Assembly: GCF_004331345.1 (NCBI RefSeq)
Contig: NZ_SJJZ01000001.1
Location: 186,001 to 250,000 of the forward strand
Origin: Kribbella soli
GTDB lineage: Bacteria; Actinomycetota; Actinomycetes; Propionibacteriales; Kribbellaceae
Length of the DNA stretch: 64,000 bases
Reading direction: 5' to 3'
Shown: positions 46,003 through 54,663 of the stretch, in pieces
Layout: each line of letters begins with the position of its first letter
How positions within the stretch are numbered: position 1 is the stretch's first letter
Position numbers and translations under genes: made by a program
The notes under the pieces: generated by a model
What the model was told of the DNA's origin: nothing
Seen by the model: the letters and a program-made list of their open reading frames with translations, nothing else
Database searches by the model: none

Positions 46003-46851
46003 ATGACGCGAGCCGGCTCCGATGATCCCCTCGACGACTTCGACCATCGGATCGTGGAGGTCGATGGGGTCGCGAAGACGGTCCACGTGATCGGCTCCGG
46101 GCCGGCAGTCGTCGTGATGCCGGAGATGCCGGGCATCAGCCCCGACGTCGCGCGACTCGCGCGCTGGGTGCGGGACGCCGGTTTCACCGTGTTCGTACCG
46201 TCGTTGTTCGGGGTGGACGGCGCCTACCCGACGGCCGAGGAGGGCGAGGCGATCGTTCGGAGAGCCTGTGTGAGTGCGGAGTTCCGCGTGTTCGCCGGCG
46301 GCGGGACGAGCCCGGTCGGCGACTGGCTGCGCGGTCTGGCCAGGGTTGCTCTGGACGAGGCAGGTGGACCGGGCGTAGGCGCGATCGGACTGTGCTTCAC
46401 CGGGAACTTCGCACTCACGATGGCGCTCGAGCCGGCGGTGATCGCGCCGGTCGTCAACCATCCGTCTCTTCCGCTGGACGCACCGGGCGAGCTCGAACTC
46501 TCGGCGGCCGATGCGGAAACGCTCGCGGAACGGTTCCGGCGCGAGGACCTGCAGGTGCTGGCGTACCGGTTCCAGGGCGACCGGTGGTGCACCGGCCAAC
46601 GCTTCGCGGCGTACCAGCGGCTTCTGGGTGACGCCTTCCTCGGACGCGTGCTGCCCGCGGAGACCGCGAACCCGGCGCCGCCGCCCTTCTTCCGCGAGGT
46701 CGTGGGGTGTGCGCACAGTGTGGTGACCGCGCACTTCGTCGACGAGGCCGGTCACCCGACCGTGCGCGCCCGCGACGAGATCCTTGCCTTCCTCACCGCC
46801 AGGCTGACGCCCTCCGCTAGCGCTCCCGGACGGAGTAGGTCAGGTGTGTGA
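46003..46851 (+). CDS. Dienelactone hydrolase family protein
   Basis: 282 residues, alpha/beta hydrolase. The nucleophile elbow is GLCFTG, with Cys instead of Ser, as in dienelactone hydrolases; His appears in ARDE-preceding HPTVRARDEI. Substrate may be a lactone or ester. The last 35 bases overlap the convergent RibD-like gene. ATG 46003 is the only good start; the divergent GlxA-type regulator probably controls it. Confidence 0.85.
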   Translation: MTRAGSDDPLDDFDHRIVEVDGVAKTVHVIGSGPAVVVMPEMPGISPDVARLARWVRDAGFTVFVPSLFGVDGAYPTAEEGEAIVRRACVSAEFRVFAGGGTSPVGDWLRGLARVALDEAGGPGVGAIGLCFTGNFALTMALEPAVIAPVVNHPSLPLDAPGELELSAADAETLAERFRREDLQVLAYRFQGDRWCTGQRFAAYQRLLGDAFLGRVLPAETANPAPPPFFREVVGCAHSVVTAHFVDEAGHPTVRARDEILAFLTARLTPSASAPGRSRSGV

Positions 46852-47437
46852 CCTTCGGGGAGTGTTCTGCGTGGACCTGCTCGAGGGCTATGCGGCTCGC
46901 GTCCACGCCTTCGAACAGGCGTATTCCGGCACCGAACAGCACCGGTGACAAGGCGATCGAGAACTCGTCGATCAGCCCGGCGTTCAGGTACTCCAGGATC
47001 GTCTCGCCGCCGCCCGCGACGCGTACGTCGCGGTCGCCCGCGGCTTCACGAGCCTGTTCGAGAGCGGTCTCGATCCCGTCGTTGACGAAGTGGAACGTAG
47101 TCCCGCCCGGCCGCTCCCAAGGGTCACGCTTCTCATGCGTCACCACGAATACCGGCGTATGGAACGGCGCCTCCTCCGGCCACATCCGCTCGCCGGCGTC
47201 GAACATGCGCTTGCCCATCACACTCACGCCGGTCCGCTCGTACGTCTCCCGCGCGATGTCGTTGTTGCGCCCCTCCTCACCGCCCTTGCCGAGCTTCAGG
47301 TTCTCCCGGAAGAACCGCAGCGGAAAGACCCACCGCTGCAACTCCATCCACTGCTTCCCCATCAATTCCTCGGGCGAGTCAGGAGCGATGAACCCGTCCA
47401 GCGACATCGACACACCGAAGAACACCTTCCCGGCCAT
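46817..47437 (-). CDS. RibD C-terminal (dihydrofolate-reductase-like) protein
   Basis: 206 residues, the YyaP/YwjB-type family: FFGVSMSLDGFIAPD at the start, VMGKRMFDAGE, VTHEKRDPWERPGGTTFHFV and the NADPH-binding VRVAGGGETILEYLNAGLIDEF. Members are reductases of unknown substrate; resistance to antifolates or a generic reductase role are possible. The ATG shares one base with the stop of the SRPBCC gene (TGATG), so it is the third gene of an ArsR-SRPBCC-RibD operon. Confidence 0.88.
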   Translation of the reverse strand: MAGKVFFGVSMSLDGFIAPDSPEELMGKQWMELQRWVFPLRFFRENLKLGKGGEEGRNNDIARETYERTGVSVMGKRMFDAGERMWPEEAPFHTPVFVVTHEKRDPWERPGGTTFHFVNDGIETALEQAREAAGDRDVRVAGGGETILEYLNAGLIDEFSIALSPVLFGAGIRLFEGVDASRIALEQVHAEHSPKVTHLTYSVRER

Positions 47438-47928
47438 CAGCTCTCCCCTCCCAACCGCGAACCGACGTAGGCAGCCAGGTTGCCCAGCGTCTGCTCACCG
47501 CCCTCAACCGCGCCGTACTTCTCGACCGCCTCGTCGCGCAACTCCTTCGTACGAAACACCGTGCGCATCTCGATCCGCGTCGCCGCACCCTCGGGCGCGA
47601 ACGTCAGCACCGACTCGAACGGGTTCGGATCCTCGCTGGACTCACCGTGCAGCAGCGCAATCCGCTCCGGTACGGCGATCTCGGTCCAGGTGATCCACTC
47701 GGCGTAGTCCGTCCCGTCCGGCCCGTGCATCACGAAGTCCCACACCCCGCCGACGCGGAACTCGAACGCCTGAGTGGTCGTGGTGAACCCGTTCGGCCCC
47801 CACCACTGCGACAGATGCCGGACCTCGGTGAACGCCTCGAACACCGACTCCCGCGGCGCGTCGATCACCCGAGAGATCACAATCTCCCGCCCGGCCGTCG
47901 CCGGTGCTTCTTGTCTGGCCTCTGCCAT
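47437..47928 (-). CDS. SRPBCC/AHSA1 domain protein
   Basis: 163 residues. START-like fold: ISRVIDAPRESVFEAFTEVRHLSQWWGPNGF at the N-terminus is the AHSA1 signature, followed by GGVWDFVMHGPDGTDY and the C-terminal amphipathic helix. Such proteins bind hydrophobic ligands and in actinomycetes are nearly always encoded beside an ArsR regulator, as here. It starts 3 bases after the ArsR gene ends. Confidence 0.9.
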   Translation of the reverse strand: MAEARQEAPATAGREIVISRVIDAPRESVFEAFTEVRHLSQWWGPNGFTTTTQAFEFRVGGVWDFVMHGPDGTDYAEWITWTEIAVPERIALLHGESSEDPNPFESVLTFAPEGAATRIEMRTVFRTKELRDEAVEKYGAVEGGEQTLGNLAAYVGSRLGGES

Positions 47929-47931
47929 CAG

Positions 47932-48273
47932 CTACTCCTCCAGCCGTGTCTGCTTCAGGTCCTGTACGTACGCGTCCAACCGGTCGAAGCTCTCGTTCCA
48001 GAACCGCTCGAACCCGCCGGCCCACTCGTGAACCGGCCGCAGCCCCCGCGCATCAAGCCCGTACAGCCGCTGCTTGCCCGCCTTGCGATCCCGCACCAGC
48101 CCCACCTCCCGCAGCACCCGCAGATGCTTGGACGCCCCCGGCTGAGTCATCCCCAACTCCTGGGCCAACTCCGTCACCGGCCGCTCACCCGCCCGCAGCA
48201 ACACCAGGATCTCCCGGCGCTGCGGCTCCGCGATCGCGTTGAACACGTCCGACGTCGTCGCTGCTCGTGCCAT
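47932..48273 (-). CDS. ArsR family regulator
   Basis: 113 residues. Winged helix: DVFNAIAEPQRREILVLLRAGERPVTELAQELGMTQPGASKHLRVLREVGLVRDRKAGKQRLYGL. No metal-binding Cys cluster, so this is the non-metal SdpR/AHSA1-associated type. ATG 48273 lies 7 bases after a strong -10 box, indicating a leaderless message; the longer open frame to 48312 would start inside the promoter. Regulates its own operon through the site at 48284-48295. Confidence 0.92.
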   Translation of the reverse strand: MARAATTSDVFNAIAEPQRREILVLLRAGERPVTELAQELGMTQPGASKHLRVLREVGLVRDRKAGKQRLYGLDARGLRPVHEWAGGFERFWNESFDRLDAYVQDLKQTRLEE

Positions 48274-48280
48274 GCCCGCA

Positions 48281-48308
48281 ATCATATGCCCATATCGGAA
48301 TACGTCAA
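48281..48308 (-). promoter_or_regulatory. ArsR operon promoter with embedded operator
   Basis: Reverse-strand -35 TTGACG (48303-48308), 16 bp, -10 TATGAT (48281-48286). The palindrome ATATGGGCATAT (48284-48295) overlaps the -10 box and spacer, as expected for autorepression. The start codon follows 7 bases later. Confidence 0.7.
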
Positions 48309-48327
48309 GCAAGGGCGATTGGATGAG

Positions 48328-48919: not shown

Positions 48920-49822
48920 ATGACCTGGACTCCCCCGCCGTACGCCGATCCGGCCGGCTTCACCGAACACGACATCACCCTGGACGCGGCCGGCCGAACT
49001 GTCCCGGGCACGTTGACACTGCCCGCGCACCCGACCGGCCAAGGTGCGGTTCTGCTGACCGGTGGCGGTCCGTTCGATCGCGACGAGACCAGCGGGCCGA
49101 ACAAACCGTTGAAGGATCTCGCGTGGGGCCTGGCGACTCAGGGCGTCGCGGTCCTGCGCTTCGACAAGGTCACCGCGAACCGGCCCGAAGCGATGGCCGA
49201 GCCGGGCTACACGATGACCGCGGAGTACGTGCCGCATGGGATCGCCGCCGTACGGCTGCTGGCCGAGCACGTCGACCAGGTCGTCCTCGTCGGCCACAGC
49301 ATGGGCGGCAAGATCGCACCGAAGATCGCTGCTGAGGAACCACTCGTCGGCGGGGTCGTGATCATGGCCGGCGATACTCAGCCGATGCAGCATGCGGCGG
49401 TCCGCGTCCTGCGCTACCTGGCACAAACAAATCCCGAGGCGGTCCCACTCGAGACCGTGACACTGTTCGAACGGCAAGCGGTCGCGGCCGACAACGTCTC
49501 TCCGGAGACTCCGGCGACAGATCTGCCGTTCGGCGCGCCGGCGTCGTTCTGGCTGGATCAGCGCGCGTACGACCCGGTCGTGACGGCGGCGAAGCTCGAC
49601 GTACCGATCCTTGTCCTGCAAGGCGGTCGCGACTACCAGGTCACCGTTGCCGACGACCTCCCCGCCTGGCGCGCAGGGCTTCCCGACGCCACGATCAAGA
49701 TCCTCGACGCCGACAATCACCTGTTCTTTCCAGGCGACGGCCCGTCGACGATGGCCGACTACCAGGTCCCCGGACACCTGGACCCGGCAGTCGTCACCAC
49801 GATCGTCGACTGGTTGCCTTAA
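48920..49822 (+). CDS. Alpha/beta hydrolase
   Basis: 300 residues. Oxyanion motif LLTGGGPFDRDE, nucleophile in VLVGHSMGGKIAP, Asp in LQGGRDYQV, His in DNHLFF. The lid and DRDETSGPNKPLKDLAWGLATQGVAVLRFDKVT segment place it in the family of secreted-type or cytosolic esterases/prolyl-oligopeptidase-like enzymes (compare YfhR/DUF3887-linked hydrolases). No signal peptide. Likely repressed by the divergent regulator; substrate unknown. Confidence 0.85.
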   Translation: MTWTPPPYADPAGFTEHDITLDAAGRTVPGTLTLPAHPTGQGAVLLTGGGPFDRDETSGPNKPLKDLAWGLATQGVAVLRFDKVTANRPEAMAEPGYTMTAEYVPHGIAAVRLLAEHVDQVVLVGHSMGGKIAPKIAAEEPLVGGVVIMAGDTQPMQHAAVRVLRYLAQTNPEAVPLETVTLFERQAVAADNVSPETPATDLPFGAPASFWLDQRAYDPVVTAAKLDVPILVLQGGRDYQVTVADDLPAWRAGLPDATIKILDADNHLFFPGDGPSTMADYQVPGHLDPAVVTTIVDWLP

Positions 49823-51285
49823 GCAAGTAGGGCCGGGTCGGACTCCAGTTCGCGTTCCGGATCCAGGGGCAGGACGATCTTGAAGACGGTACGACCCGGC
49901 TCGGACTCGACCCGCAGGTCGCCGTGGTGCTTCTTCACCACGATGCGCCAGGAGATGTCGAGGCCCAGGCCGGTGCCTTCACCGATCGGCTTGGTGGTGA
50001 AGAACGGCTCGAAGATGCGGCGCCGGATCTCGTCGGGGATACCCGGTCCGGTGTCGCCGATCTCGACGACAGCGTAGGCGCCGTCCCGGCGGGTGCGGAT
50101 TGTCAGCGTCCCGGATCCGCCCATCGCGCTCACCGCGTTGTCGATGATGTTCGTCCACACCTGGTTGAGTTCCGCGGCGTACGCCGGGATCGCGGGCAGC
50201 TCGGGATCGAAGTCCTTGACGATCTCGTACCCCTGCAGCTTCCCCGACATCATCACCAGCGTCGACTTCAGCAGCTCGCGCAGATCGACGGTCTGGTACG
50301 GCGCCCGGTCGATCTGCGAGTACTGCTTCGCCGCACCGACGAGGGTCGAGATCCGGGTCACGGAGTCGTCGATCTCGTTCATCAGCGACTCGGTGTCGAT
50401 GGTGTACATCAACCACCGCACGGCACCCTCGAGGTACTTCGGCCCGACCGCGGCCAGCACGTTCTCCATCCACGGCACATCCAGGCCGGCGGCGGCGAGC
50501 ACCGGCGCCACGTCCCAGCTCGCCTGGACGTCGTGGTCGTCGAGCCAGTCCGTCAGCGTGTCCTCGCGGTCGGACAACTCCATCGGCGGGATGTCCTTGT
50601 CCTTGTTCTTCTCCAGCCGCTCGACCGCGTCGTCCTGCAACGCGACGATCTGGTGCAGCTTGGTCGCGTCGAGCGTGCCGTCGGCGAGCATCGCCAGCTT
50701 CGACCGCATCCCGGACACCCGCTGCCGCAAGGTCGCGGCCGCCCGCACCGCGGCGGCGGCCGGGTTGTTCAACTCGTGGGTCAGCCCCGCGGACAAGGAG
50801 CCGAGGGCAAGCAACCGCTCACGCTCGCCGAGCGTCTCGTTGGTCCGCCGCATGCCCATCACGAAGCCCTCGATCAGGTGCACTGCCATCGGGAACCAGG
50901 TGTTCATCATCGTCGCCATCGTCTCGGCGCTGATCACGAAGAACTCCGACGGCTCGGTCACCTGCATCGTCGCGGTGTAGGACTTGTGATCGTTGGCGCC
51001 GAAGAACGCGTTGAACGCACCGGAGTACACCCCGCGCTGGCCGGTCCGGTTGATCTCCACGAGCTCGCCGTGCGACAGCTTGCACAGCCGGATCTCACCC
51101 GAGAGCAGGACATAGCAGCAGGTCGCCTCGTCGCCCTCGTTGAACACGACCCCGTCGTGCACGGACTCGACGTACCCGACCTCGGAGAGCCACTGCAGCT
51201 GCTCCTCGGTGAGGCTCTCGAAGAGGAACAGCGTGCGCAACTCGTCAGGAGTCAGCCGCCGCGGCTCCACATCTTGGTCAGTCAT
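49819..51285 (-). CDS. Histidine kinase with N-terminal cyclic-nucleotide-binding domain
   Basis: 488 residues, soluble. Residues 15-135: cNMP-binding (CRP-like) beta-roll ([22 protein letters not shown]). A coiled helix then leads to the phospho-acceptor H170 in [14 protein letters not shown]-terminal HATPase: N box [10 protein letters not shown]1 GDTGPGIP, F box FEPFFTTK, G2 GEGTGLGL. A roughly 120-residue helical insert (185-305) separates dimerisation and ATPase parts. Translationally coupled (TGATG) to the upstream receiver/thioredoxin reductase fusion, its evident partner. Its 3' end overlaps the convergent hydrolase. Confidence 0.9.
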
Positions 51286-52946
51286 CAGAGCATCTCCAGG
51301 TATCGGTGCACCAGTGTCACGGCCATCGCTCCGTCGCCGACCGCGGAGGCGACCCGCTTCACCGACTCGGCCCGTACGTCGCCGGCGGCGAACACGCCCG
51401 GCATGCTCGTCTCCAGGTGGTACGGCTCCCGCTCCAGCGGCCAGCCCGGCGGTCTGCCGTGCAGGTCGGGTCCGGTGAGCACGAAGCCTCGGTCGTCGCG
51501 GAGCAGGTCACCGGGCAGCCAGTCCGTCCGCGGGGCCGCGCCGATGAACACGAACATCCATTCCGTGTCCACCTCACGCTTCTCCCCGGTCTCGCTGTTC
51601 AGCAGGGTGAGATGTTCCAGGTGCTCCGAGCCGATACAGGAAACGACCTGCGTGCAGGTGTGCACCTCGATGTTGTCGATCCCGTCGATCTGGTCGATGA
51701 GGTACGACGACATCGTCGCGGTGAGCGATGGTCCTCTCACCAGCATATGCACGCGTTTCGCATGCCTCGAGAAATAGACCGCCGCCTGACCGGCGGAGTT
51801 CGCCCCGCCGATGATGTACACCTCGGCGCCGGCGCACGCCGGACCCTCGGTGGTGGCCGAGCCGTAGTAGATCCCGCGACCGCACAGGTCGTCGACACCG
51901 GGCGCCTGGAGCGTCCGGTACGAGACGCCGGTCGCCAGGATCACCGAGTGCGCTGAGATCTCGCTGCCGTCCGCGAACACCAGCCGCCGCGCGTTGCCGA
52001 GCGTGTCGAGCCCGACGACCTGCCGGGTCGTCAACAGCTCGGCTCCGAACCGGACCGCCTGGCGCCGGGCTCGGTCCGTCAACTGCGCGCCCGACACCCC
52101 GTCCGGGAAGCCGAGGTAGTTCTCGATCCGGCTCGACTGCCCGGCCTGACCACCAGTCGCCAACTGCTCGACCAGCACGGTCCGCAGGCCCTCACTGGCG
52201 CCGTACACGGCTGCACCGAGCCCGGCCGGGCCGCCACCGACCACGACCAGGTCGTAGAAGTCCTTCGCCGGCGCCGTCGACAGACCGACCTTCTGCGCCA
52301 GCTCGGCCTCGGACGGCGCGATCATCACCGTGGCGTCGGGCGTGATCACGACCGGCAGCGTCGTACCGTCCACGTCAGCGGCGTCGAGGAGCCGCTTGGC
52401 CTCGTCGTCGTCGACGTTCAGCCAGCGGTACGGCACGGCGTTGCGGGCGAGGAAGTCGCGGGCCGCGAACGACGGCGCCGACCAGCGATGACCGATCACT
52501 CGGGTCTCGTCGCCGGACGGTTCGGGGGTCGACCGCCACAGGTCGAGCATCGCGTCGACCACCGGATACAGCTTCTCCTCCGGTGGGTTCCACGGCTTCA
52601 GCAGGTAGTGGTCGAGGTCGACGACGTTGATCGCCTGGATCGCGGCGTCGGTGTCGGCGTACGCCGTCAGCAGCACCCGGCGAGCCAGCGGGAACAGGTC
52701 CATCGCGGCCTCGAGGAACTCGATGCCGGACATCTGGGGCATCCGATAGTCGGCCAGCAACAGCGCGACGGGCTCACCACGGAGCTTCAGCTCCTTCAGT
52801 GCGTCGAGCGCCTGCACCGGGTTCTCCGCCCGGACGATGCGGTTCTCCTCGCCGTACCGACGGCGGAGGTCACGGGCGATCGACCGGGAAACGCCCGGAT
52901 CGTCGTCGACGGTGAGGATCACCGAGCGGGTCGTTGACGCTGTCAT
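51285..52946 (-). CDS. Receiver domain - thioredoxin fold - thioredoxin reductase-like fusion
   Basis: 553 residues. Residues 8-125: CheY-like receiver with acidic pocket VDDDPG, phospho-acceptor Asp in LLLADYRMP, Thr in LTAYAD and Lys in LLKPW. Residues about 143-220: glutaredoxin/thioredoxin-like part (APSFAARDFLARNAVPYRWLNVD). Residues about 230-550: FAD/NAD(P)H pyridine nucleotide reductase with GGGPAGLGAA, second dinucleotide site IIGGANSAGQAA, and AAGDVRAE. The redox CxxC of thioredoxin reductase (YCATCDG) is replaced by YYGSATTEG. Start ATG 52946 has GGAGG only one base away, so initiation may be weak or leaderless. Confidence 0.9.
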   Translation of the reverse strand: MTASTTRSVILTVDDDPGVSRSIARDLRRRYGEENRIVRAENPVQALDALKELKLRGEPVALLLADYRMPQMSGIEFLEAAMDLFPLARRVLLTAYADTDAAIQAINVVDLDHYLLKPWNPPEEKLYPVVDAMLDLWRSTPEPSGDETRVIGHRWSAPSFAARDFLARNAVPYRWLNVDDDEAKRLLDAADVDGTTLPVVITPDATVMIAPSEAELAQKVGLSTAPAKDFYDLVVVGGGPAGLGAAVYGASEGLRTVLVEQLATGGQAGQSSRIENYLGFPDGVSGAQLTDRARRQAVRFGAELLTTRQVVGLDTLGNARRLVFADGSEISAHSVILATGVSYRTLQAPGVDDLCGRGIYYGSATTEGPACAGAEVYIIGGANSAGQAAVYFSRHAKRVHMLVRGPSLTATMSSYLIDQIDGIDNIEVHTCTQVVSCIGSEHLEHLTLLNSETGEKREVDTEWMFVFIGAAPRTDWLPGDLLRDDRGFVLTGPDLHGRPPGWPLEREPYHLETSMPGVFAAGDVRAESVKRVASAVGDGAMAVTLVHRYLEML

Positions 52947-53048: not shown

Positions 53049-54572
53049 CTACGGGAGGGCGTCGAGGTACGGCGCGTGGCTGTTCTGGAACTCCCAGTTG
53101 TAGTAGTGGTCCCAGTTGACCGACCACGTCATCAGCCCGCGGAAGCCCGGCGAAGTACCGCCGCGGAGGCTGTAGCCACCACAGTTCTGGCCCTTCACCA
53201 AGCAGTCGAGCGCTTCGTGCACGGCTGCCGGGGCGGTGTAGCCGTTGCCTGCGCTGACCGCTGCCGGGAGCCCGAAACCGATCTGGTCGTCGCGCAGTCC
53301 CGGAAACGTCTGACCGGTGTTCGCCACCGGGAAGCCGGCCTTGACCATGTCGGTCATCGCGATGTGGAAATCCGCGCCGCCCATGGTGTGGTACTGGTTG
53401 TCCAGCCCCATCACCGGACCGGAGTTGTAGTCCTGGACGTGCAGCACGGTCAGCGAGTCCCGCAAGGCGTGGATGACCGGCAGGTACGAACCGGTCCGGT
53501 TGTCGCCGCCGCTGGAGCCGCCGTAGAACTGGTAGCCGACCTGCACGAAGAACGTCTCCGGCGCCATCGACAGCACGAAGTTCGCGCCGTACTTCGCCTT
53601 CAATGTCTTCAGCGCCGAGATGAGATTGACGATCACGGGTGTCGTCGGGTTGCGGAAGTCGGTATCGCCCGCGTTCAGATAGAGCGAGTGTCCTTCGAAG
53701 TCGATGTCGAGCCCGTCCAGGCCGTAGCGATCGATGATCGCGCTCACCGAACTGACGAACGCGTCCCGGGCCGCGGTTGTGGTCAGCTGCACCTGCCCGT
53801 TCGCGCCGCCGATGGAGATCAGCACCTTCTTACCCGCAGCCTGCTTGGCCTTGATGGCTGCCGCGAAATCCGCATCACTCTCGACGTTCGGACACTCGCT
53901 CACCGGACACCTGTTGAACCTGATATCGCCGGACGTGACCGACGTCGGTTCCCCGAAAGCCAGATTGATGATGTCCCACTGCTCCGGCACGTCAGCCATC
54001 CGCACGTAGCCGGAACCATTGGCGAAGCTCGCATGCAGGTACCCGATGAGCGCATGCTTCGCCAGCCCTGCAGGCGGATCTCCCGGATCAGGAGGATCAG
54101 TGGGGTCACCGGGGTCGCTGCCGCCCGGACCGTCCAGGGTGAGGTCGTCGGCCTGGTACGCCGGTTGGCCGTACCAGCCGTGCACGTAGATCCGTGCGGA
54201 CGTCTGACTCGCACCCGTGGTGAAGGACAGACTCAGCTGGGTGTAGCTCGCCGCGGACGGTGTCCAGATCGACGCGCCACCCGTGACGCCCAGGTAGACG
54301 TACGAGCCGCGTACCCAGGCCGACAGCGTGTACGCCGTGTTCGGCTGCACCGCGACTGTCTGGCTGCACTGGGCGTAGTCCGAGCTCGTGACCGCTCCGT
54401 TGAGGGCATATCCGCCGCTGCGGACCGGAGTACTGACGACTGAACCGCCAGAGCAGTTCCAGCCGCTCAGGGATCCGGACTCGAAGCCGGGATTGGACAG
54501 GATGTTCGCGGCCTGCGCCGGAACAGCAATACCGGCCAGCAGGACGCCGAGAACCACCGCAAGCCATCGCAT
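53049..54572 (-). CDS. Secreted GH18 chitinase with N-terminal CBM
   Basis: 507 residues. Signal peptide 1-22 (AVPAQA), jelly-roll carbohydrate-binding module about 23-149 (NILSNPGFESGSLSGW, typical of CBM4/9-like modules), a Pro/Asp/Gly linker 150-168, and a GH18 catalytic domain. The catalytic motif GLDGLDIDFE places E293 as proton donor. This is the ChiC/ChiD-type streptomycete chitinase layout, distinct from the ricin-module GH18 at 17.6 kb. ATG 54572 sits close behind TACTAA, suggesting a leaderless start; ATG 54578 is the alternative. Confidence 0.92.
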   Translation of the reverse strand: MRWLAVVLGVLLAGIAVPAQAANILSNPGFESGSLSGWNCSGGSVVSTPVRSGGYALNGAVTSSDYAQCSQTVAVQPNTAYTLSAWVRGSYVYLGVTGGASIWTPSAASYTQLSLSFTTGASQTSARIYVHGWYGQPAYQADDLTLDGPGGSDPGDPTDPPDPGDPPAGLAKHALIGYLHASFANGSGYVRMADVPEQWDIINLAFGEPTSVTSGDIRFNRCPVSECPNVESDADFAAAIKAKQAAGKKVLISIGGANGQVQLTTTAARDAFVSSVSAIIDRYGLDGLDIDFEGHSLYLNAGDTDFRNPTTPVIVNLISALKTLKAKYGANFVLSMAPETFFVQVGYQFYGGSSGGDNRTGSYLPVIHALRDSLTVLHVQDYNSGPVMGLDNQYHTMGGADFHIAMTDMVKAGFPVANTGQTFPGLRDDQIGFGLPAAVSAGNGYTAPAAVHEALDCLVKGQNCGGYSLRGGTSPGFRGLMTWSVNWDHYYNWEFQNSHAPYLDALP

Positions 54573-54663
54573 AGCCATTTAGTAGAGACGTTCCATAACT
54601 CATGGTCAATGCGCTGGGACGGCGGCTATCCGACGCTGTCGGGAACCGGCCTAGGGTGAGCGC

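Follow-up and report, generated by a model that had tools for sequence, protein, structure and literature searches.

What would a bacterial two-component system control if its response regulator ended in a flavoprotein resembling thioredoxin reductase (TrxR) that had lost its active dithiol? The question is raised by a pair of genes in Kribbella soli (NZ_SJJZ01000001.1, assembly GCF_004331345.1; genome size 8.79 Mb), within a window of 64,000 nucleotides to which all positions given here refer. Most receiver domains drive DNA binding or second-messenger enzymes. Here, on the minus strand, a gene for a 553-residue response regulator (51285..52946) is followed by one for a 488-residue sensor histidine kinase (49819..51285), the TGA of the first overlapping the ATG of the second by one base, and the two form an operon with the regulator first. 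We give a probability of about one in two to the reading that the pair may work as a redox switch based on NAD(P)H and flavin, without a dithiol and gated by phosphorylation, in which the output of the two-component system would be an enzyme. An earlier note on this DNA, made from the letters alone, had described the two-gene operon (49819-52946), a kinase histidine in LTHELNNP, a receiver with all its phosphorylation residues, a thioredoxin-like part and a reductase domain for flavin adenine dinucleotide (FAD) and NAD(P)H that lacks the active dithiol; its description of the architecture is borne out by the analyses below, with two domains redefined.

Both redox dithiols are replaced in the regulator

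The regulator begins with a receiver domain (residues 10-122; 52581..52919, minus strand, as are all features of the pair; Pfam Response_reg, E 1.9e-12) in which D15, D16, D66, T94 and K117 are all present. They are likewise present in 80/80 named-genome loci, a set made up of the best 80 of 590 candidate loci and thus of close relatives, the closest of them being Kribbella. The C-terminal part (residues 231-550; 51297..52256) is a low-Mr TrxR-fold FAD/NAD(P)H domain, as identified by Pfam (Pyr_redox_2, E 3.1e-33), by NCBIfam and by sequence and structure matches. By alignment and by comparison with the ordinary TrxB of the same genome, which keeps both CATC and HRR, the site of the lost CxxC was placed in GIYYGSATTEGPACAGAEV (51819..51875), where the window protein reads YYGSATTEG at the position of CATC and which also includes Cys371 (51834-51836). 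In the same way, LVRGPSL (51723..51743) replaces the HRR motif of TrxB, Arg404 being retained.

The earlier note had itself raised the concern that homologues might keep the two cysteines and that the loss might be a sequencing error. This check was run on 80 aligned proteins, chosen from 115 distinct segments by leaving out L029 and segments of 530 residues or less; the set includes the window copy (L009), near-identical rows of the same genus and the four strong matches without an adjacent kinase discussed below. CxxC at the reductase site was found in 0/80 of these proteins and in 0/80 of the named-genome loci, a set that may overlap with the first, which rules out a sequencing error or a local cysteine loss. 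An ordinary TrxR with a displaced dithiol is the related explanation. It has a similarity of name in its favour, the TrxB equivalog model TIGR01292 matching with E 3.6e-66, but the score of 223 lies under the cut-off of 343.45, no CxxC occurs anywhere else in the window protein, and the genome has its normal TrxB; we consider a displaced dithiol or an error highly improbable.

FAD and NAD motifs, in contrast to the dithiol, were retained in every group of aligned relatives, and in alignment A1 (51 chosen rows, with no protein fused to a cyclic nucleotide-binding domain) they were invariant together with Arg404 and with Y361 and G362, which lie beside the lost CxxC. The remaining cysteine is less constant. 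Cys371 occurs in 59/62 proteins of the kinase-linked clade, in 5/5 fusions with a domain for cyclic nucleotide monophosphates (cNMP) and in 80/80 named loci; it is absent from 13 proteins with a degenerate receiver (pseudo-receiver), from the Deinococcus pair and from one cNMP-fused Deinococcus protein, and given these absences a role as a universal redox residue is doubtful.

Between receiver and reductase lies a mycoredoxin/glutaredoxin-like domain (residues 146-226; 52269..52511). Its best sequence match in the PDB, found with a 13-row profile, was the glutaredoxin-like Rv3198.1 (2lqo; E 2.2e-5), which we take to be a mycoredoxin; Pfam matches for the fold were below cut-off. The WCGYC of Rv3198.1 aligns with W-S-A-x-S in the regulator family, the CxxC reading S156-A-P-S159 in the window protein, and the two cysteine-equivalent positions are serine in 59/62 and 57/62 kinase-linked-clade proteins. 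CxxC was found in this domain in 0/68 distinct rows, with any cysteine at all in 10/68, which rules out a dithiol donated by the spacer. The thioredoxin-like part of the earlier note is more exactly a Cys-less domain resembling glutaredoxin and mycoredoxin. At the level of sequence, then, both dithiols expected of an enzyme of the TrxR/thioredoxin type are replaced, with the cofactor motifs kept.

The structural model resembles the flavin-reducing form of TrxR

The structure model of the regulator had a mean pLDDT (predicted local distance difference test) of 90.3. Comparison with the PDB, which covered TrxR-like entries and hence the reductase part, aligned the model with Thermoplasma acidophilum TrxR (3cty_B) over 303 residues, with a Z score of 36.8 and a root-mean-square deviation (rmsd) of 1.6. 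Against Lactococcus lactis TrxR the rmsd was 1.7 for the flavin-reducing form (5mh4, 302 residues aligned) and 7.5 for the flavin-oxidising form (5mjk, 301). The flavin-reducing form is what a dithiol-less enzyme would need, and this predicted agreement is only suggestive.

TrxR-type ferredoxin-NADP reductases (FNRs) have the TrxR fold and function without CxxC, and the domain could accordingly be a ferredoxin or flavodoxin reductase, or one for a small protein, under phosphorylation control. The model does align with Bacillus cereus FNR2 (8c16) over 303 residues (Z 29.2, rmsd 3.0). By sequence, however, the regulator is far nearer to true TrxR (phmmer E 1.7e-49) than to FNR (5xhu, 2.5e-16), known FNRs of this type have no receiver, and an inspection by eye of the neighbouring open reading frames (ORFs) listed, most of them unannotated, picked out no gene for a ferredoxin or a flavodoxin. 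We regard this explanation as improbable.

Set against the other members of the fold, the regulator shares its FAD and NAD(P) motifs with low-Mr TrxB and differs from it in having neither CxxC nor HRR, in falling below the NCBIfam cut-off and in its fusion to a receiver. AhpF, like the regulator, carries a part with a thioredoxin fold ahead of its TrxR core; AhpF passes electrons via dithiols, whereas in the regulator both dithiols are gone and a receiver has been added.

Kinase and regulator are conserved as a pair

The earlier note had suggested checking whether the gene pair is conserved across actinomycetes. We surveyed 246 genomes of the class, taking an E value under 1e-150 as a strong regulator match. 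A kinase lay immediately downstream on the same strand in 96 of the 100 strong matches; conversely, the regulator lay immediately upstream of 97 of 109 kinase matches, some of which are fragments, and a kinase match occurred in 92 of the 246 genomes. Among the best 80 named loci, the kinase was downstream in every case. Because it is conserved in this way (96/100; 80/80), the pair is neither an error nor a chance neighbourhood, and the latter can be ruled out. Furthermore, the pairwise distances of the two proteins co-vary (mirror r 0.966 over 41 pairs, 0/2000 permutations as high), a correlation to which common descent and some ten nearly identical pairs from the same genus contribute. Sequence evidence thus stands behind the proposed couple of a kinase and a receiver with a dithiol-less TrxR-fold output part, conserved as a pair.

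Four strong matches had no adjacent kinase. One (L112) ends less than 600 bases from the end of its contig, two (L109 and L110) have a kinase match about 22 and 17 kb off on the same contig, and in the fourth (L111) the receiver Lys has become Met. In a further genome (G019; L029:4770-6648), two overlapping ORFs are read in place of the regulator, owing to a frameshift or an assembly fault.

Beyond actinomycetes, the pair extends to Deinococcus, cyanobacteria and Burkholderiales. We found it, with intact receivers, on plasmid records of Deinococcus, Nostoc, Gloeothece, Caballeronia, Paraburkholderia and Tsukamurella; one Nostoc record has two genes intervening within the pair, and in three of the records, from Deinococcus, Paraburkholderia and Caballeronia, the regulator also has a further kinase gene of the CRP type upstream. 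At L136, L137, L139 and L113, CRP-type kinases flank the regulator on both sides, giving two kinases per regulator. A gene for a low temperature requirement protein A lies near the pair on two Nostoc plasmids and one Deinococcus plasmid (L135, L136, L142). For members with this architecture, the annotated records examined say just 'FAD-dependent oxidoreductase' and 'ATP-binding protein'.

The kinase carries a CRP-like sensor without canonical ligand residues

The kinase consists of a CRP/cNMP-binding-like sensor domain (residues 46-128; 50902..51150; Pfam cNMP_binding, E 1.1e-9), an H-box, an insertion of about 110 residues, as judged from the extents of the Pfam and NCBIfam matches, and a HATPase_c domain (residues 371-475; 49861..50175; E 6.9e-24). 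HisKA stayed below the Pfam cut-off (0.083). The phospho-acceptor His170 in LTHELNNP (50776..50778) was identified by its conservation: it is invariant in 42/42 kinases of alignment A2 (42 chosen rows, window included) and in 80/80 named-genome kinases. The structure model of the kinase was fair (pLDDT 79.7), and its structural matches were ordinary kinases.

The earlier note had also proposed that the sensor binds cyclic nucleotides. Its fold matches Pfam cNMP_binding at 38.5 bits, above the cut-off of 27.5, the domain of a paralogous kinase falling below it at 26.3. The phosphate-binding Glu and Arg are, however, missing. The GE...R-S/T-A signature, which supplies these residues in cNMP-binding domains, is kept in three of nine such domains of the genome (L223, L225, L229) and is absent from the kinase of the pair (L228) and from its paralogue (L231). 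By sequence, then, 'cNMP-binding' is a fold match only for this sensor, and because it lacks those phosphate-binding residues a classical cyclic-nucleotide ligand is doubtful. The idea that the pair reads cyclic nucleotides is weakened to that extent, but a cyclic-nucleotide context does exist at the level of the family, some relatives adjoining cyclases or carrying cNMP-binding domains themselves.

A kinase-less sister clade has degenerate receivers and in part adjoins cyclases

We scored receiver integrity at four positions (16 acidic, 66 Asp, 94 Ser/Thr, 117 Lys). All four were as required in 61/62 proteins of the kinase-linked clade, the single failure being L111, and in 80/80 named loci. 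By contrast, none of 13 proteins in a kinase-less sister clade (tree of 56 rows, support 99/99) passed. Receiver integrity thus appears to follow the presence of a kinase, by a rule that is not strict, because the receiver is intact in three of the four strong matches that lack a neighbouring kinase.

In the stretches read, a cyclase motif lies behind 6/13 sister-clade genes, and a Guanylate_cyc domain was confirmed by Pfam in L033 and L101. Of the remaining seven loci, L105 is followed by a different cyclase-domain protein and L106 by a cNMP-binding patatin; at L102, L103, L024, L025 and L027 no cyclase or cNMP neighbour was found in the stretch read. A search of the 246 genomes with that cyclase gave 14 full-length matches. 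Compared by eye, a pseudo-receiver gene immediately precedes the cyclase in 13 of them, and the 14th match begins at the start of a contig; partial and more distant matches in five further genomes have no listed flavoprotein alongside. K. soli itself has such a second locus, in which genes for a pseudo-receiver-TrxR protein and a membrane nucleotidyl cyclase overlap or abut (C4:148336-151381; L020:4777-7897).

These cyclase-linked members favour the chief rival to our reading, that signalling runs in reverse. The flavoprotein would then do the sensing, a change in the state of its FAD/NAD(P)H altering the receiver and hence the flow of phosphate through the kinase, or the kinase's phosphatase action, and in part of the kinase-less clade it would steer the cyclase through the pseudo-receiver. 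That the sister clade has retained a receiver although none of the 13 is intact, that 13 of 14 full-length cyclases stand directly behind the flavoprotein gene, where the evident output is the cyclase, and that the dithiol required for a reductase output is lost in every group all fit this reversal. On the other hand, the kinase has a sensor domain of its own, the usual order of kinase and regulator places the regulator at the output end, fewer than half of the pseudo-receiver genes are followed by the cyclase motif in the stretch read, and more distant cyclase relatives occur with no listed flavoprotein match alongside. We judge the flavoprotein-as-sensor explanation unlikely, though the most probable of the alternatives.

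A third arrangement fuses the same Cys-less core to a CRP-like domain in a single polypeptide. We took 17 genes as cNMP-fused, namely those among the matches listed (to about E 1e-97) whose match starts at residue 134-149; for one (L021) the domain was confirmed by Pfam. Proteins of this kind are annotated 'Cyclic nucleotide-binding domain-containing thioredoxin-disulfide reductase'. They share the Cys-less glutaredoxin-like domain and the CxxC-less TrxR core with the regulator (about 44-51% identity over the core) and differ in the N-terminal CRP-like domain that stands in place of the receiver. The tree does not group the receiver forms strictly into one clade, since the long-branch cNMP-fused L141 of Deinococcus branches within them; support is weak at several deep forks. 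In K. soli, the cNMP-fused gene (L021:5164-11487; C3) lies in a heat-shock-like cluster beside genes for a thioredoxin and for ClpB-, DnaJ- and GrpE-like proteins, the thioredoxin and CRP-like domains being assigned by Pfam and the other labels by eye.

A small zf-UBP protein is a recurrent neighbour

Counting among the 150 zf-UBP matches listed in the genome survey, we found a zf-UBP gene within 3 kb of 23/97 pairs, of 3/4 strong matches without a kinase and of 12/17 genes taken as cNMP-fused. At 20 of the 23 pairs it lies on the same strand within 180 bases, in 17 of these behind the kinase. In 35/80 named loci, a zf-UBP motif comes directly after the kinase gene on its strand, in 34 of these 38-161 bases past the aligned kinase end. 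Small zf-UBP genes of this kind occur at L151, L153, L190 and L140, among others. With at most four zf-UBP matches per listed genome, simple arithmetic puts the chance expectation at about one or fewer of 97. By its position, the small zf-UBP protein is likely to be a partner of the pair.

A recurrent partner, together with the loss of both redox dithiols, would also fit a catalytically idle flavoprotein, which would hold FAD and NAD and, once its receiver is phosphorylated, serve as a scaffold to bind or titrate another protein. The invariance of the cofactor motifs, Y361, G362 and Arg404 in the 51 rows of A1 speaks against such a scaffold, which we think a poor bet.

Surroundings of the pair in the window

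The regulator ORF also reads longer, an alternative GTG start extending it to 52994. Upstream, on the same strand, is a chitinase-like gene (53049-54578), and downstream a convergent hydrolase-like gene; further along, at 46817-48312 on the minus strand, an ArsR-like regulator gene precedes AHSA1/SRPBCC-like and RibD/DHFR-like genes in an ordinary-looking cluster. All these labels were given by eye from the ORFs. A scan for promoters and terminators found no promoter-like site and four terminator-like sites, all within the two genes, and is uninformative for a GC-rich actinomycete.

Discussion

Under the reading that we prefer, a cytosolic kinase would sense some ligand or a redox signal through its CRP-like domain, classical cyclic AMP being an improbable candidate, and would phosphorylate the receiver at Asp66, a partnership to which the genomic pairing points. 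The receiver, acting through the Cys-less mycoredoxin-like spacer, would then gate the TrxR-fold flavoprotein, control presumably running in that direction, and the flavoprotein would take hydride from NAD(P)H to FAD, for which it has the cofactor motifs. With both CxxC motifs lost, electrons could not leave through a dithiol, so that the reduced flavin would act directly on another acceptor (a small redox protein, a quinone, O2 or a protein partner) or would itself signal redox state. The small zf-UBP protein encoded beside many relatives is a candidate acceptor.

Several observations weigh against this scheme. The HRR of TrxB, an NADPH motif, has become LVR in the window protein. Intact receivers persist in three strong matches that have no adjacent kinase, and the Deinococcus pair has lost Cys371 with its receiver intact. 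The zf-UBP gene accompanies only those 23 of 97 pairs, and none of the zf-UBP matches listed lies beside the window's own pair. As for the models, AlphaFold 2 may tend towards the flavin-reducing form whichever TrxR it is given, the predicted arrangement of domains within the regulator is uncertain, the kinase model is only fair (predicted template modelling score 0.44), and conservation of a fold is no proof of catalysis.

The combination of receiver and TrxR is not in itself new: it was in print in 2018 as a 'Mycobacterium-like combination', in a sentence on Heimdallarchaeota (PMC5847659). The proteins meant there have the same receiver-TrxR architecture, and the available passages of that paper are silent on the missing dithiol, the glutaredoxin-like domain, a partner kinase, zf-UBP and a cyclase-linked clade; those of PMC8945050 do not mention the architecture. 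Searches of open-licence papers, judged by their listings and with older censuses of response-regulator outputs lying outside them, brought up no account of the pairing with a kinase, the loss of the dithiols, the clade linked to cyclases or the neighbouring zf-UBP gene.

More tentatively, the dithiol-dead mycoredoxin-TrxR core may be a reusable redox-signalling module, coupled by a receiver to kinases, by fusion to a CRP-like domain and by a pseudo-receiver to a membrane nucleotidyl cyclase, with zf-UBP as a recurrent partner and with the redox state of the flavin, not disulfide exchange, as its currency. The widespread pair of a kinase and a dithiol-less flavoenzyme brings phosphorylation and redox chemistry together in one protein, where both are directly testable. 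Nearly every member of the kinase-linked clade has an intact receiver and the 13 kinase-less proteins examined have a broken one, a contrast that amounts to a natural experiment. Concrete candidates for partners are offered by the zf-UBP and cyclase neighbours. If the idea of a reusable module is true, it would tie together NAD(P)H state, phosphorylation and cyclic nucleotides.

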